The notes beneath the pieces were generated by a model that was not told the origin of the DNA, did no database searches, and worked only from the letters and a program-made list of their open reading frames with translations. Shown piece after piece: positions 14,382-24,952 of a stretch of DNA of 59,979 nt (within the stretch, counting starts at the first letter, position 1; each line of letters opens with the position of its first letter). Origin of the DNA: Candidatus Levybacteria bacterium RIFCSPLOWO2_12_FULL_39_17 (GTDB lineage: Bacteria; Patescibacteriota; Microgenomatia; Levybacterales; GWA1-39-11); assembly GCA_001782675.1 (NCBI GenBank), contig MFPJ01000022.1, positions 1-59,979 on the forward strand. The letters run 5' to 3'. The position numbers were made by a program, and so were the translations under genes.

Positions 14382-16072
14382 AGTATTTTTTTCTTCCTTT
14401 GTTATTTGTAATGCTTTTAGGTTTAGTCTTAAGACTTGCGTTTTTGGGTCAAATACCGCAAGGGCTTCATAGGGACGAGGCATTTTTGGGCTACAATGCT
14501 TATTCAATTCTGAAAACAGGCTCCGATATCAGCGGGAATTTTTTACCGATACACCTTGAGTCTTTTTACTTTAGTCCAAATGGGTACTCATATTTTTCGA
14601 TTCCCTTCATATTGATTTTCGGTCTTAATTCTTTTTCAATTAGGCTTGCCTCATTTTTATTCGGTTCCCTTACTATTCCATTAATCTACTTTTTATCCGT
14701 GAAACTATTTGAAAAAAATAAGAACAAAAGATTAATATCCCTGCTTTCAGCTTTGTTTTTGGCAATTTCTCCCTGGCATATCAATTTATCCAGAACCGCA
14801 ACTGACAATGTCATTGTGCTTTTTTTCATAACCTTAGCAGTATGGATTTATGTTTCCTCAAATAAAAATGTTTACTTAAGAGTTCTTTCTTATCTATTTT
14901 TCGGAATAAATACTTTTATTTATCAAGCTCCTCGAGCTTTTACGCCTCTTTTAATTCCAATATTGTTTTTATTTACTTCATGGATGCAGAAGAGAAATCG
15001 CGGAAAATTATTACTTGAGATTGTTTTATTCTTGGTTATAATTATTGCTCCGATTTTGATAATACTTTCAAATAAGAACTTGACGGCAAGAATTAGTGAT
15101 TTAAGCATTCTTAATCATCCGCAAACAAAATTGGTACTTCAAGAGCAAATCACGATAGACTCGGTAGCAGGACTACCTTACCCGTTGATTCGGCTTTTTC
15201 ATAATAAGATTACCGGATATTTTTTGACGATGAGTGAAAATTATTTCAAACATTTTTCATTCGATTTTCTCTTTTTGGATAAAGGTTTTCCTGACAGATA
15301 TAGAATCCCGGGATCGGGACTCTTATACATCTTTCAACTGCCCCTTATTTTGATAGGATTATTTTTACTCTTTAAAAAAGAAATAAGGACAGGAATATTT
15401 TTATTGCTGTGGCTTTTAATTTCTTTTGTAGGCTCGGCTCTGACATTTGATGATATCCCGAATCTTCAGCGGACATTATTTGCTGTTGTACCTTTTTCTA
15501 TATTGTCAGCATATGGAGCAGTATGCTTTGCGCATCCTGCCAGCCCGCTTCGCCGAATCGAGGCGAGCAGGCAGGTAGTAAATATGCATATAAAATATTT
15601 AATATTTTCTTTATGTATTTTATTTTTAATGTTTAATTTTTTATATTATATTGTCCAATATTATATTCAGGGGAAGGTTTACAGACCATGGTATAGGCAA
15701 GACGGATATAAAGAATTAGTTGAAAATGTAAATACTTACATTCCCAGTTATAAATATGCGATTATTACTTCAAGAGAAACAGCTCCTACAATATTTTTCC
15801 TTTTTTTCGGCAAATATGATCCGGCTCTTTTCCAAAATCAAACTAAAAATATAGATATGGAAAAGTCGGATCATGTAAGCTTTGCAAATTATAGATTTTC
15901 TGAAGAAGAATGTCCGTTGAAAGTCGATCCTAAAACTGAAGCTTTAACAGGAGAGAAGGGAATCCTATATGTGAACAGTTCTTTATGCAAAGACCCTAAA
16001 GGAGCCAGGGTAATAGATGTAATAAAAAGGGCAGACGGTTCGGAAGTTTTCCGGATTTTAGATTTAAAATAG
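14378..16072 (+). CDS. GT39/PMT-like glycosyltransferase (paralog array member 1)
   Basis: GLHRDEAFLGYNAYSILKTGSDISGNFLPIHLESF...LAISPWHINLSRTATDN; TTG start. Confidence 0.8.
   Translation: MKYFFLPLLFVMLLGLVLRLAFLGQIPQGLHRDEAFLGYNAYSILKTGSDISGNFLPIHLESFYFSPNGYSYFSIPFILIFGLNSFSIRLASFLFGSLTIPLIYFLSVKLFEKNKNKRLISLLSALFLAISPWHINLSRTATDNVIVLFFITLAVWIYVSSNKNVYLRVLSYLFFGINTFIYQAPRAFTPLLIPILFLFTSWMQKRNRGKLLLEIVLFLVIIIAPILIILSNKNLTARISDLSILNHPQTKLVLQEQITIDSVAGLPYPLIRLFHNKITGYFLTMSENYFKHFSFDFLFLDKGFPDRYRIPGSGLLYIFQLPLILIGLFLLFKKEIRTGIFLLLWLLISFVGSALTFDDIPNLQRTLFAVVPFSILSAYGAVCFAHPASPLRRIEASRQVVNMHIKYLIFSLCILFLMFNFLYYIVQYYIQGKVYRPWYRQDGYKELVENVNTYIPSYKYAIITSRETAPTIFFLFFGKYDPALFQNQTKNIDMEKSDHVSFANYRFSEEECPLKVDPKTEALTGEKGILYVNSSLCKDPKGARVIDVIKRADGSEVFRILDLK
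15536..15575 (+). repeat. GC-rich palindromic hairpin inserted in-frame in CDS
   Basis: CCTGCCAGCCCGCTTCGCCGAATCGAGGCGAGCAGGCAGG; folds on itself (about 17 bp, 2 mismatches, 1 GU). Encodes PASPLRRIEASRQ, absent from paralogs. Confidence 0.85.
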
Positions 16073-17753: not shown

Positions 17754-19385
17754 ATGAGGAAGTACTTCTTTATAGCATTAATTTTAATGCTTGCGATTTT
17801 TCTTCGCTTTTTTTCAATTTCAACCAATCCTCCTTCTCTAACATGGGATGAGGCTGCTTGGGGATACAATGCTTATTCTTTGGGAACAGACGGGAGAGAT
17901 GAGTTCGGGAAATTTTTGCCTTTGACATATATCGAATCTTTCGGCGACTATAAACCTCCCCTTTATGCGTATCTGGCGGTTATTCCGGTAAGAATATTCG
18001 GTTTAAACGAATTTGCAACCAGATTCCCTTCCGCTTTCTTTGGAGTTTTAACGGTTTTAATAACATACTTTTTGACGAAGAGAATATTTAATGTGAGTTC
18101 GAAATTGGAAATTGGAAATTGGAAATTGGAAATTCTGCCGCTTTTGGCGGCAGGACTGTTAGCAATTTCTCCCTGGCATATTCTTTTATCAAGAGCGGCT
18201 TTTGAAGCAAATGTTGCAACTTTTTTTATAGTTTTGGGAGTTTTTCTGTTTTTCAGTTCGCTTAGCAATAAATGGCTTCTTCCTCTGTCTGTAATTTCTT
18301 TTATCATTTCAATGTACACATTCAACACTGCAAGAATTCTTGCTCCTCTTCTTCTCTTGGTTCTTCTAATTTCACAAAGAAAATATCTTCTTTTTGCTTT
18401 GAAAAAGCAACTTTTCGTAAGTTTAATTTTGGGGGCAGTATTTTTTTTGCCCTTGTTTCTTTTCCTTTTAACTCCCCAAGCCAAGCTTAGGTTTCAAGAG
18501 GTAAATATTTTTACGGATAGCCAGGTTGTTGATAGAGCAAATCAACAGATAGCAAATGACAACAATGCTTTCTGGTCGAAAATAATTCACAACAGAAGAT
18601 TAGGCTTTGCAGCTTCATTCCTTAATCACTATTTTGATAATTTCTCTCCCGAATTCCTGTTTATAAAAGGAGATGGTAATCCTAAATTTTCGATTCGTGA
18701 TGTAGGGCAAATGTACATTTGGGAAATTCCGTTTTTTATAGCAGGAATTCTTTTGCTTTTTAGGAAGCGTGAAGGATACTGGTGGATTATTCCGATTTGG
18801 TTGATCTTAGGAATAATTCCGGCAGCAACAGCTCGTGAGACACCTCATGCTCTGCGTATTGAAGCGGTTCTGCCGACATTTCAGATTCTTACAGCTTATG
18901 GCCTCTACCATTTAATTTCAAATTTCAAACTCCGTCCAATTTTGAGCGGATTAGTTTCGATAGTCGCTATTTTTAATTTCCTATACTTCTATCACAATTA
19001 TTTTGTTCATTATCCTCGTGAATTCTCCAGTGAGTGGCAATATGGATATAAGGAGGCTATAGGATTTGTAAAGAATAACGAAGCAAAATATGACAAAGTA
19101 ATATTAACAGAGGATTTAGGGAGACCATATATTTATGCTTTATTTTACACAAAATACGACCCTTCAGGCTTCAGGAAAGAAGCCCGAATAGAACGAGAGG
19201 TTTACGGATTTGTGCATGTTAGGGAATTTGGGAAATACAAATTTTCCGAATCGGTGAAAAATAATATTGACAGAAGCAAAGAAATACTTTATTTGGATAC
19301 TCCCGGCAAAATTCCAAGCGATGCAAATATTCTTAAAAAGTTTAAACTTTTGGACGGAAACGAAATTTTGGTTGCATATGAATAA
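17754..19385 (+). CDS. GT39/PMT-like glycosyltransferase (paralog array member 3)
   Basis: SLTWDEAAWGYNAYSLGTDGRDEFGKFLPLTYIESFGDYKPPLYAYL...LAISPWHILLSRAAFEAN. Track start 17721 is TTG; ATG 17754 preferred. Confidence 0.82.
   Translation: MRKYFFIALILMLAIFLRFFSISTNPPSLTWDEAAWGYNAYSLGTDGRDEFGKFLPLTYIESFGDYKPPLYAYLAVIPVRIFGLNEFATRFPSAFFGVLTVLITYFLTKRIFNVSSKLEIGNWKLEILPLLAAGLLAISPWHILLSRAAFEANVATFFIVLGVFLFFSSLSNKWLLPLSVISFIISMYTFNTARILAPLLLLVLLISQRKYLLFALKKQLFVSLILGAVFFLPLFLFLLTPQAKLRFQEVNIFTDSQVVDRANQQIANDNNAFWSKIIHNRRLGFAASFLNHYFDNFSPEFLFIKGDGNPKFSIRDVGQMYIWEIPFFIAGILLLFRKREGYWWIIPIWLILGIIPAATARETPHALRIEAVLPTFQILTAYGLYHLISNFKLRPILSGLVSIVAIFNFLYFYHNYFVHYPREFSSEWQYGYKEAIGFVKNNEAKYDKVILTEDLGRPYIYALFYTKYDPSGFRKEARIEREVYGFVHVREFGKYKFSESVKNNIDRSKEILYLDTPGKIPSDANILKKFKLLDGNEILVAYE
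18101..18134 (+). repeat. heptanucleotide tandem repeat (GAAATTG)x4.9 inside CDS
   Basis: Four exact GAAATTG units (18101, 18108, 18115, 18122) plus GAAATT; encodes KLEIGNWKLEI. Confidence 0.97.
18135..18153 (+). repeat. short GC-rich hairpin next to the heptamer array
   Basis: CTGCCGC-TTTTG-GCGGCAG, perfect 7-bp stem. Confidence 0.7.
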
Positions 19386-21036
19386 ATTATTCTTGCTTAC
19401 AATTATTGTAGTAGCGATTCTGATTCGATTTTGGCAAATAGGAAATGTGCCTCCTTCTCCTGATTGGGACGAAGCGTCTTTAGGATATAATGCCTACTCT
19501 ATAATGCTGACCGGAAAAGATGAATATGGAAAATTTTTGCCTATTATCCTAAGGTCTTTTGACGATTATAAGCCTGCATTATATGCATATTTAATTATCC
19601 CTTTTATAAAGATTTTCGGTTTAAATATTGTTGCAGTCAGACTTCCTGCAGCAATATTCGGGGTATTGGGAGTATTAGGTACCTACTTTCTAGTAAAGGA
19701 GCTGTTTAATAAAAATTCGAAACGATTAGAAATTCTGCCGCTTTTAGCAGCAGGTTTATTGGCGATATCCCCTTGGCATGTGCAGTTCTCCCGTGTTGCT
19801 TTTGAAACGCAGGTGGGACTGGCTTTTAATATATTTTCAATCCTTTTCTTTTTAAAAGGTTTCAAGCAAGGAGCTTATCTATTTATTTCTGCTTTTTTTG
19901 CTGCCCTAAGTATTTATGTTTATCAAAGCGAAAAAGTCTATATTCCTATTCTCTTTTTTGTTTTTGCATTAATTTATTGGAAAGATATTTTGGCTATACC
20001 GAAGAAATGGTTAATATCGGCTTTACTTTTCGGAGCCATATTTGTATTCCCTATGTTTTGGACTCTTGTATCAGACCCCAATTCCTTAATGAGAGCACGA
20101 GGGGTGAGTGTTTTCTCGGACCAAACTCAATTTTTAAAAAAAAATGTTCAAAAACTTGAGCAGGATAGGAAAAATAATGACTATTTGGGGCTCATTTTAG
20201 ACAACAGAAGGGTTGAATATTCAAAGTCTATAATTTCGGGATACATATCTCACTGGAACTTGAACTGGCTGTTTATAACGGGCGATATAGAGCGTCATCA
20301 TGCCCCATTTATGGGTCTAATGTATTTGGTTGAACTTCCATTTTTGCTTGCGGGAATTTATTTTCTGCTTTTTGGCAATTATCCTAAGAAAACTAAGCTT
20401 ACGATCTTGGCACTGTTCTTAATTGCGCCAATTCCTGCGTCTGTGACAAGCGGAGTTCCGCATGCCGTGCGAACCATAAATTTTTTACCAACATTTCAAA
20501 TATTCACAGCAATAGGAGCGCTTGCTGCCGCAAGCTTTATATCAAATATAAAATATAAAATAGTAAATATAAATATAAAATATTTAATATTTGCTTTATG
20601 TATTTTATTTTTTATTTTTAATATTCTATATTATCTCAATCAGTATTTTGTACAGCAAAATTATTATTATTCTCAAGCTTGGCAGTATGGATATAAGCAG
20701 GCCATAGACTTCATTGCTCCTATTAAAGGTCGCTATCAGAAAATAGTAGTTTCAAATGTAAGCCCTTTGGATCAATCCTACATGTTTTTCTTATATTATT
20801 TGAAATTTAATCCTGCCTCATATCAAAAACTAGGAGGAACATTAAGCGGAGGATTTGCGCAAGATCATAAGGGTTTTGATAAGTTTACATTTAAAGAAAT
20901 AGTCTGGGATAGTGAGAAAAAAGAGAAGACCCTTTTCGTTGGGACCATGGATGATTTTGGAGATGGAGCAAAAATACTTAAAAAAATTAATTATTTGGAC
21001 GGAAAATCAGCTATTGTAATTGCAGAAGTTCAATAA
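19378..21036 (+). CDS. GT39/PMT-like glycosyltransferase (paralog array member 4)
   Basis: MNKLFLLTIIVVAILIRFWQIGNVPPSPDWDEASLGYNAYSIMLTGKDEYGKFLPIILRSFDDYKPALYAYL. Track start 19267 overlaps upstream gene; ATG 19378 preferred. Confidence 0.82.
   Translation: MNKLFLLTIIVVAILIRFWQIGNVPPSPDWDEASLGYNAYSIMLTGKDEYGKFLPIILRSFDDYKPALYAYLIIPFIKIFGLNIVAVRLPAAIFGVLGVLGTYFLVKELFNKNSKRLEILPLLAAGLLAISPWHVQFSRVAFETQVGLAFNIFSILFFLKGFKQGAYLFISAFFAALSIYVYQSEKVYIPILFFVFALIYWKDILAIPKKWLISALLFGAIFVFPMFWTLVSDPNSLMRARGVSVFSDQTQFLKKNVQKLEQDRKNNDYLGLILDNRRVEYSKSIISGYISHWNLNWLFITGDIERHHAPFMGLMYLVELPFLLAGIYFLLFGNYPKKTKLTILALFLIAPIPASVTSGVPHAVRTINFLPTFQIFTAIGALAAASFISNIKYKIVNINIKYLIFALCILFFIFNILYYLNQYFVQQNYYYSQAWQYGYKQAIDFIAPIKGRYQKIVVSNVSPLDQSYMFFLYYLKFNPASYQKLGGTLSGGFAQDHKGFDKFTFKEIVWDSEKKEKTLFVGTMDDFGDGAKILKKINYLDGKSAIVIAEVQ
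20544..20584 (+). repeat. degenerate heptanucleotide array (AAATATA-type) inside CDS
   Basis: AAATATA AAATATA AAATAGT AAATATA AATATA AAATATT. Confidence 0.75.
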
Positions 21037-21783: not shown

Positions 21784-23295
21784 ATGAAGGCATTCAATAT
21801 TCTTATATACATATTTTTAGGAACAGCTCTTGTTTTTGGGATTATGCTTAGGTCTGTTGATCTCCTAAGCGGGAATTATCTTTTTGGATTTGATCAGGGG
21901 AGAGATTATCTCGCGGTAAAAAAAATCGTTGTAGACCACAAACCAACACTGATAGGATCGGAAATCGGTGCGGGGGCGGCAGGGTTTAGGGGAATATTTC
22001 AGGGACCATTTCATTATTATTTTCTCTCCATCCCTTTCTTATTAAGCGGAGGAAATCCATACGGAGGGATTATTTTAATGTTTCTTTATGGGATATTAAC
22101 GATAATCTTAGGCTATCTGTTGGGAAAAGAGCTGTTCGGTAAATTAGGAGGCTTATTGGTTGCTGCTTTGATTTCGTTGTCTCCGCCGTTTATTTCTCAA
22201 TCCAGGTTTGTATGGAATTCTCATGGTGCTCCGGTTTTTATCTTACTCGCATTTTACTGCGCTTATAAGTTGTCTCTTGCCAAAAATAATAAGTATATTT
22301 TTGGAGCGTCATTTTTTTCCGCATTTATTTATAATTTTCAATTTGCTATTGCTGTACCAATGTCAATTGGACTGCTTGTTTACTTGGCTTTAATTTTAAA
22401 AATTAGAAGTTTTAAAAAATATTTAGTCGTGTTTTCCGGATTTGTATTGGCATTGTTGCCAATGGTTCTGTTTGAAATAAAACATAATTTCATGGCGATA
22501 AGGGGATTTCTGGATTACTCCTCAAATCCGGATAAAACAGAGATTACACTAATGTTTATTAAGCTATTACTGCGAGACCATCTGGGATCATTCATTTTTA
22601 ATGTTTTTGACAGTTTTCCCAAACAGAATTTTGCTTCGGGAGAATTTATCGCTATTTTTCTTCTGGCATGTACTTTGTTCTTTATTGTTAAAGAAAAGGA
22701 TAAAGATAAGAAGAGTTTCATTATCTACTTACTATCGTTGCCTTTTGTAACTTTTTTGATTTTGGGATTTTTGAGGAATGCAGTTTATTCCTACTATCTT
22801 TTGCATTTAAGTCTGGTTTATGTGGTCTTATTGGTTTATATTCTGATCTCGTCTATCCAAGCGAAGAAAGTTCTCCCTCAAATTATAGTTTTAATTTTCA
22901 TATCAATATCTTTTCCGCAAGCTTTTCCTAATATAATAAAAACATTCGTCTATGATTATAAAGATTACGGAGGGACTGCAAAGATTGCCGGCAAGAAAAA
23001 CGCTATGGATTATATTTACAAAGATGCGGGGAAAAAGGAATTTAACTTATTAATATTTTCTCCACCCGTGTATATTTATCCATATGATTATCTTTTATGG
23101 TGGTACGGGAGTAAAAAATACGGATTTGTTCCGGGGAACAAAAAAGAAGGAACTTTTTATCTTTTGATGGAGCCGGATTCTTCAAAACCGTGGTCTCATA
23201 AAGGGTGGCTTGAAACTGTTATAAAAGAAGGAGAGGTTGTTTGGGAGAAAAAACTTCCGAGCGGCTTCATTATTCAAAAAAGAATTAATGAATAA
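21784..23295 (+). CDS. GT39/ArnT-like multi-TM glycosyltransferase
   Basis: YLFGFDQGRDYLAVKKIVVDHKPTLIGSEIG...FQGPFHYYFLSIPFLLSGGNPYG. Confidence 0.75.
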   Translation: MKAFNILIYIFLGTALVFGIMLRSVDLLSGNYLFGFDQGRDYLAVKKIVVDHKPTLIGSEIGAGAAGFRGIFQGPFHYYFLSIPFLLSGGNPYGGIILMFLYGILTIILGYLLGKELFGKLGGLLVAALISLSPPFISQSRFVWNSHGAPVFILLAFYCAYKLSLAKNNKYIFGASFFSAFIYNFQFAIAVPMSIGLLVYLALILKIRSFKKYLVVFSGFVLALLPMVLFEIKHNFMAIRGFLDYSSNPDKTEITLMFIKLLLRDHLGSFIFNVFDSFPKQNFASGEFIAIFLLACTLFFIVKEKDKDKKSFIIYLLSLPFVTFLILGFLRNAVYSYYLLHLSLVYVVLLVYILISSIQAKKVLPQIIVLIFISISFPQAFPNIIKTFVYDYKDYGGTAKIAGKKNAMDYIYKDAGKKEFNLLIFSPPVYIYPYDYLLWWYGSKKYGFVPGNKKEGTFYLLMEPDSSKPWSHKGWLETVIKEGEVVWEKKLPSGFIIQKRINE

Positions 23296-24952
23296 GCTGA
23301 AAACAGCCTGCCTGCCGGCAGGCAGGGTTTTATTAATTATAATCTTTATTCTTGCCTTGTTTTTTAGGTTTTTTAATCTTTCTTCAATACCTCCCCAACC
23401 TACAGTAGATGAAGTTTCAATAGGTTACAATGCTTATTCAATTCTCAAAACGGGAGCCGATGAATATGGGAATAAGTTTCCTATTTTACTTCGTGCTTAT
23501 GACGACTATCGACCGGCTCTTTATGTTTATTTGGCAGTTCCATTCGTTGGTTTATTTGGTTTAAATCCGCTTGCAGTTAGACTTCCCTCCGTAATTCTTT
23601 CAACGCTAAGCGTAATAGCCGTCTATTTTCTCATAAAGGAGTTAGCCATAGGTGCCAAATCCATTCGACTTGGAAAATCACAACTCGATCTGTCCTTTGT
23701 TACGACTTGTCTATTTGCTATTTCTCCATGGCATATTTACATATCAAGATTGGGACACGAGGTAAATGCTTCTTTTTCCTTCTTAATTTTTGGACTACTG
23801 TTTTTTTTAAGGTTTATTAATAAACAAAAGTGGAATCTTTATTTATCTGCTTTATTTTTCGGGCTTTCTTTCAATTCCTACCAAAGCACTAAACTTGTAG
23901 CTCCATTAATTTTAGCTGTTTTGGCTATATTGCATTTTAAAACTTTAATCGCAAATAAAAAAACCGTAATTATTTCTGCAATTATTGGATTTATCGTTGC
24001 CCTGCCTATACTTTCAACTTCATTCGATCAGAACGCACTTATCCGCTTCAAAGCAACAAATTTATTAGAATATTCAGTCGATTATTTTAAAATACAAAAA
24101 GAAAGGCTTGATGAAAATAGGGCAAAAGGTGATTTAGTTGGAGTTTTATTTGATAATAGAAAAGTAGCATCCGGTCTTTTGATATCAAAAGCCTATCTTT
24201 CACATCTTAATCCCCAGTGGTTGTTTTTAAACGAGGGCGGTGAACAATTTAAAGCGCCGGCACTCGGGCTTCTATATTTGTTCGAACTGCCGCTATCTAT
24301 CCTAGGGCTTCTGTTTTTAACTCGGACTGGAATTCCTACAAAAACCGTAATATTTATTTTTGCTTGGAGCGTAATTGCTATTATTCCAGGGGCAATAACA
24401 ACAGGTTATGCTCATCCAATGCGAATTTTTTCTATCCTGCCTGTTCCGCAAATCTTTGCAGCGGTTGGGTTTTTGATTTTTATAAATTATTTTCAAAAGT
24501 TTCGGCCGGTAGTTTTAGCAGGATCGGTGTTCGTAGCGTTTATATTTGCCCTGTGGTTTTTTCACTCGTACTTTACTTTGGTTCCAAGGGAGCTGTCGAG
24601 CCATTTTCAATATGGAATTCTCAATGCTTTTGCCCGGGCAGAAAAAATTGAGGATAGATATGAGAAAGTAGTTGTGTCAAACACGGACCGACTTTTTGAA
24701 AGCTATATGTTTTATCTGTACTATAAAAGATATGACCCGGAGCTTTACCAAAAAATAGGAGGAACAGTATCGGGCGGGTTTGCAGAAGAGCACAGAATTG
24801 ACAATTATGTATTCGGGAGAGTAGATGATAAAATCAGTAAAAATACTCTATACATAATAAATCCTCATGAAGAGAAAGAGTTTATGCGTGTTCTTTACAG
24901 AATCCCATATCTTAATGGAGAAACAGCATTGCTTGTGGCGGAAATAAAATGA
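23288..24952 (+). CDS. GT39/PMT-like glycosyltransferase (paralog array member 5)
   Basis: QPTVDEVSIGYNAYSILKTGADEYGNKFPILLRAYDDYRPALYVYLAVP...FAISPWHIYISRLGHEVN. ATG 23288 (track start 23237). Confidence 0.82.
   Translation: MNKLKTACLPAGRVLLIIIFILALFFRFFNLSSIPPQPTVDEVSIGYNAYSILKTGADEYGNKFPILLRAYDDYRPALYVYLAVPFVGLFGLNPLAVRLPSVILSTLSVIAVYFLIKELAIGAKSIRLGKSQLDLSFVTTCLFAISPWHIYISRLGHEVNASFSFLIFGLLFFLRFINKQKWNLYLSALFFGLSFNSYQSTKLVAPLILAVLAILHFKTLIANKKTVIISAIIGFIVALPILSTSFDQNALIRFKATNLLEYSVDYFKIQKERLDENRAKGDLVGVLFDNRKVASGLLISKAYLSHLNPQWLFLNEGGEQFKAPALGLLYLFELPLSILGLLFLTRTGIPTKTVIFIFAWSVIAIIPGAITTGYAHPMRIFSILPVPQIFAAVGFLIFINYFQKFRPVVLAGSVFVAFIFALWFFHSYFTLVPRELSSHFQYGILNAFARAEKIEDRYEKVVVSNTDRLFESYMFYLYYKRYDPELYQKIGGTVSGGFAEEHRIDNYVFGRVDDKISKNTLYIINPHEEKEFMRVLYRIPYLNGETALLVAEIK
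23307..23326 (+). repeat. perfect 20-nt palindrome inserted near the 5' end of a CDS
   Basis: CCTGCCTGCCGGCAGGCAGG; gives the peptide ACLPAGR directly before TM1. Confidence 0.95.

Follow-up and report, generated by a model that had tools for sequence, protein, structure and literature searches.

A perfect 20-bp palindrome in a Candidatus Levybacteria glycosyltransferase gene appears to be among the smallest known mobile DNA elements

The RPEs of Rickettsia are dispersed palindromic sequences of about 150 bp, which occur in frame in unrelated protein genes and add a peptide to them (PMC10969869), and REPs are dispersed palindromes of 20-40 bp that are sometimes located within genes (PMC3733652, PMC3116915). 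The palindrome analysed here, CCTGCCTGCCGGCAGGCAGG, is located at positions 23307-23326 (+ strand) of a 59,979-nt stretch of Candidatus Levybacteria DNA, referred to below as the window. Similar to RPEs, it is palindromic, dispersed and found in frame in protein genes with an added peptide; it differs from them in being perfect, identical across phyla and present also in tRNA loops, its unit being 20 bp with unrelated flanks and not a conserved RPE sequence of about 150 bp. With REPs and REPINs it shares the size and a mainly extragenic location, its copies being depleted in long ORFs (29%, compared with 65% of random positions). In contrast to them, it lacks a terminal GTAG or CGTC tag (abutting tags were rare among 240 exact copies: GTAG 3, CGTC 2 and GGAG 2), occurs mostly as singlets and is unchanged between phyla. 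We conclude that it is RPE- and REP-like in behaviour and a member of neither family.

The 20-nt palindrome was the longest perfect one in the window, which has a GC content of 34.8%. No second match was found in the 59,979 nt even when 3 mismatches were allowed, the shuffled sequence contained none, and the chance expectation for the exact 20-mer is about 8e-9 (~1e-8) per 0.9 Mb at 35% GC; thus, the palindrome claimed in the earlier note is present, as one copy in the window, and is not a product of chance. It lies in a gene (positions 23288-24952, + strand, ATG at 23288) predicted to encode a membrane glycosyltransferase and matching Pfam PMT_2 (PF13231), so that the label GT39-like given previously is fair. 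The preceding gene (21784-23295, + strand) encodes a membrane protein, and its stop codon, TAA at 23293-23295, overlaps the start of the host gene. The palindrome starts at the second base of codon 7, giving the N-terminus MNKLKT-ACLPAGR-VLLIII. RNA of the palindrome could form a 7-bp hairpin at about +19 to +36 relative to the ATG, where it might affect initiation as suggested in the earlier note, but the fold of the host-gene start region was unremarkable (z=-1.8).

The empty sites that the earlier note had proposed to look for in sister genomes were found: the ACLPAGR block was missing from the orthologs of the host gene in three relatives (G001, 68% identity; G019; G006), and a paralogous PMT-like gene in the window (19267-21036, + strand) had nothing inserted at the corresponding N-terminal site (MNKLFLLTIIVV). 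Excision of exactly 20 bp from the host gene left no in-frame start, and because the frame must be kept, 21 bp must be removed. The putative in-frame insertion coding for ACLPAGR would therefore comprise a G plus the palindrome (positions 23306-23326, + strand). Another PMT-like gene of the window carries in frame an imperfect 40-nt hairpin, CCTGCC...GGCAGG (15536-15575), which encodes the peptide HPASPLRRIEASRQV; similar hairpins were noticed in the host genome at C15:6352 and C19:8958. It had been proposed that this hairpin shares its arms, CCTGCC/GGCAGG, with the 20-bp palindrome; the arms do recur, but nothing beyond them is held in common, and the 15536 hairpin is at most a longer cousin.

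In the host genome (907 kb, Patescibacteria), search matches and the sequence stretches around them revealed 7 exact copies, 10 at ≤1 mismatch and 13 at ≤2 mismatches, whereas the reversed sequence gave 0 both in this genome and in a scan of 380 genomes of the phylum. The palindrome is neither single-copy nor conserved in the orthologs of its host gene. At ≤1 mismatch it was present in half of 60 relatives with a patchy distribution, the three genomes of the host genus having 10, 6 and 0 copies. The exact 20-mer occurred in 86 of the 380 genomes across Patescibacteria, with a maximum of 25 exact copies per genome. In a scan of a GTDB-based collection, the matches listed included at least 8 other phyla, as judged by record names, which can be wrong for MAGs but here include cultured Bacteroidota: besides Patescibacteria, they were Omnitrophota, Bacteroidota, Nitrospirota, Elusimicrobiota, Planctomycetes, WOR-1, Verrucomicrobia and Chloroflexi. 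The cultured isolate Longitalea luteola had 29 exact copies and 13 with one mismatch (42 in total), and Agriterribacter humi, also a cultured member of Bacteroidota, had 14 at ≤1 mismatch. In IMG/VR, 33 viral stretches carried the palindrome; one 29-kb viral contig (IMGVR_UViG_3300037242_000417; L234, L241 and L242) held at least 5 exact copies. The earlier note had linked the palindrome to CPR bacteria; its distribution is multi-phylum.

Comparison of 203 distinct exact copies revealed that similarity ends at the edges of the 20-mer and that the flanks are unrelated; therefore, the unit is the 20-mer itself. The palindrome was preceded by A in 42% of the flanks and by T in 9%; the flank pair A/T made up 23%, C/C or G/G 23% and T/A 1%, the window copy (G/G, equivalent to C/C) belonging to one of the two commonest classes. 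Neither a strict three-base target motif nor a T-run was found in these flanks. With regard to the inverted doublets typical of REPINs, 15 pairs among about 285 sites were ≤400 bp apart, and a perfect palindrome has no orientation. Mutated copies also exist. Regarding the surroundings, tRNA-like sequence was over-represented (strictly 6/285 sites vs 11/2840 controls, and more by eye), as were degenerate tandem tracts with a period of 7-8 (11% of sites outside Longitalea vs 2%). In Longitalea luteola, many copies were observed within degenerate TTNNGCG heptamer or octamer tandem tracts (L297-L316 and L323), where many share the same phase, the usual junction being GCG-palindrome-TT. Enrichment of sites in hairpin loops was weak (9% vs 5%), and hairpin-loop targeting is not claimed as a general rule.

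Precise junctions were found in tRNA fragments, which were identified by reading and partly by BLAST; ARAGORN applied to the joined flanks missed them because they are truncated. In L081 (tRNA-Leu), L083 (tRNA-Asn) and L112 (tRNA-Lys), the palindrome lies within a tRNA 5′ fragment; a few hundred bp further on, the same tRNA is present in intact form and lacks the palindrome, and excision of 20 bp from the fragment restores the exact tRNA sequence with a target duplication of 0 bp. Three tandem tRNA-Arg 5′ fragments with a 101-bp period (L319:313-534) each contain a one-mismatch variant, CCTGCCTACCGGCAGGCAGG, and adjoin an intact tRNA-Arg, the net insertion again being 20 bp in all three. The same precise pattern was seen in L262, where a tRNA-Phe 3′ fragment has the palindrome in its T-loop, and a viral tRNA-Met with the palindrome in its variable loop was still recognised as a tRNA. 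Further tRNA-Phe 3′ fragments near the GIY-YIG gene of L262 (beyond position 1300) bear other hairpin insertions, which suggests that there are several families of small mobile hairpins.

Within ORFs, 47 copies were located, 24 of them in the phase encoding LPAGRQ; some of the 47 ORFs, particularly those in GC-rich viral contigs, may be open merely by chance. The earlier note had stated that ACLPAGR-type peptides recur in CPR proteins, and LPAGRQ, CLPAGR and PACRQA were found recurrently in frame in conserved genes. MurB of the host genome has a clean 7-codon (21-bp) in-frame insertion that is present in none of 5 relatives, a membrane-protein gene has a 7-codon insertion missing from 2 relatives, and RecG of a Yanofskybacteria genome has 7 extra residues compared with T. 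maritima RecG (1gm5). The palindrome was also found in DnaE, Fpg and PMM/PGM (phosphomannomutase), and one pseudouridine synthase gene holds two copies. The target duplication in coding genes was at most 1 bp, and the net insertion was 21 bp in the genes examined vs 20 bp in the tRNA fragments. Because of this difference the chemistry of insertion is not fixed, the simplest reading being that insertion is slightly imprecise and that events keeping the frame were selected. The palindrome resembles MITEs in being short, non-autonomous and devoid of coding capacity of its own; it differs from them in having no core bounded by terminal inverted repeats and no consistent target duplication.

Since it is present or absent at orthologous or paralogous sites with an exact net difference of 20-21 bp, the palindrome behaves as an insertion. 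Identical copies in unrelated flanks, empty orthologous and paralogous sites and recurrent in-frame peptides together give strong support to the mobile palindromic family proposed in the earlier note. The window palindrome is thus probably, at a rough probability of 0.62 and as judged from sequence comparison, a copy of an ultrashort (~20 bp), non-autonomous mobile element inserted into a glycosyltransferase gene. An enzyme acting in trans would recognise the palindrome, which could otherwise hardly stay identical across phyla, and would insert it where the DNA is broken or a loop is exposed, adding 0 or 1 extra base. None of the six reading frames of the palindrome contains a stop codon; in permissive protein loops, 21-bp events would therefore survive as in-frame peptides (ACLPAGR, LPAGRQ and PACRQA), whereas most survivors would be found in tRNA fragments, spacers and tandem tracts of short period. 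The first two of these may be no more than DNA that tolerates insertion.

As the likeliest carrier we tentatively propose tRNA-gene-invading GIY-YIG nucleases of the small, standalone type. A nuclease of this kind would cut the target, and repair or end joining would capture the self-complementary duplex. Among the 380 genomes, copy number was correlated with the number of GIY-YIG genes (Spearman 0.44), the proportion of palindrome-positive genomes rising from 3% at 0-1 GIY-YIG genes to 54% at 11-14; the correlation was lower for Y1 (0.26) and absent for DDE transposases (rho 0.02), the latter speaking against a generic mobile-element load behind the GIY-YIG correlation. In a joint regression on copy number, t was 8.2 for GIY-YIG, 2.8 for Y1 and -0.2 for DDE, and within-family permutation gave p=3e-4 for GIY-YIG. 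Within families, both GIY-YIG and Y1 were significant (r 0.31 and 0.35), so that correlation alone does not choose the carrier. Physical linkage favours GIY-YIG: the palindrome directly adjoins GIY-YIG genes in L081, L083, L112, L158, L245 and L262, which represent several unrelated genomes, mostly in tRNA fragments (Pfam confirms the assignment for five adjoining genes), and palindromes flank GIY-YIG genes on both sides in G436 (A. humi) and G004. Small GIY-YIG genes were observed as cassettes in tRNA genes (L081:1545-1838, L083:1244-1552, L112:2115-2402, L262:1021-1233, L317 and L318), arranged either as tRNA 5′ fragment, gene and intact tRNA or as intact tRNA, gene and 3′ fragment, a layout by which a working tRNA is retained. 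The palindrome and these homing-type cassettes have some loci in common and both enter tRNA genes; however, the palindrome has no gene, and only a minority of its copies adjoin a GIY-YIG gene, most being far away, as in Longitalea, whose 42 copies and 7 GIY-YIG matches are not adjacent. The full proposal, which would amount to a new mode of DNA mobility, is rather doubtful: tRNA-invading GIY-YIG nucleases would copy a 20-bp palindrome without genes or further termini from one site, and one phylum, to another, and the copies would enter tRNA loops and essential genes with no duplication of the target.

One alternative is a REP element, mobilised by a Y1 transposase (RAYT or IS200-like) that acts on single-stranded hairpins. 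The size and palindromy of the 20-mer match, the absence of target duplication would fit single-strand transposition, and Y1 was present in 67% of palindrome-positive genomes vs 41%, with counts correlated within families. We nevertheless consider this unlikely, as tags rarely abut the palindrome, the effect of Y1 is small once GIY-YIG is included in the regression, and 9 sampled Y1 loci bear other hairpins (CAGGGTC..GACCCTG and CAAGGCC..GGCCTTG) or none, with the palindrome in 0/9. No Y1 gene was within 1 kb of the listed copies in the genomes whose coordinates were compared, and the single Y1 gene of Longitalea is at least 50 kb from the copies listed on its contig. Y1 loci L250, L251 and L252 were seen to bear palindromes of their own, CAAGGCC..GGCCTTG, CAGGGTC..GACCCTG and TCCGACCCC..GGGGTCGGA. 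A passive origin, in which no dedicated enzyme takes part and a self-complementary duplex of the 20-mer is taken up at any break that the host repairs, would agree with duplications of just 0-1 bp, with the near absence of a target motif except A at -1 and with copies in many kinds of tolerant DNA; it is similarly improbable, leaving unexplained both the conservation of the same sequence across phyla and the strong preference for A and avoidance of T in the flank. That the palindrome is a binding or uptake site (DUS- or HIP1-like), a terminator or an mRNA hairpin under selection appears very unlikely despite its perfect conservation and its ability to form an RNA hairpin: very high, lineage-wide copy numbers would be expected of DNA uptake or HIP1 sequences, but it numbers 0 to 42 per genome, is patchy even within a genus, and sits in tRNA loops and in essential proteins whose orthologs are empty. 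A terminator role was rejected on the flanks, which have no T-run. Identical sequence across unrelated MAGs could point to a sequencing or assembly artefact, which is scarcely credible given cultured isolates with up to 42 copies, mutated copies, in-frame copies in essential genes and a reversed control of zero.

The reading that we favour is therefore still a mobile element of about 20 bp. Among open-access papers, we found no description of the palindrome, no mention of ACLPAGR-type peptides and no paper joining GIY-YIG, tRNA and CPR, and one of the 12-mers searched for appeared in a single paper, on E. coli and unrelated to the palindrome; as the search covered open-access papers only, novelty is uncertain. 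If the reading is correct, ACLPAGR, LPAGRQ and PACRQA peptides, as well as hairpin-bearing tRNA fragments, should be annotated as insertions and not as conserved motifs. The cultured hosts Longitalea and Agriterribacter are available for finding the mobilising enzyme, whose activity in uncultured groups the palindrome would mark. It would then rank with the smallest mobile DNA units described, unchanged between bacteria that are only very distantly related, and would repeatedly supply conserved proteins with identical insertions of 7 residues.
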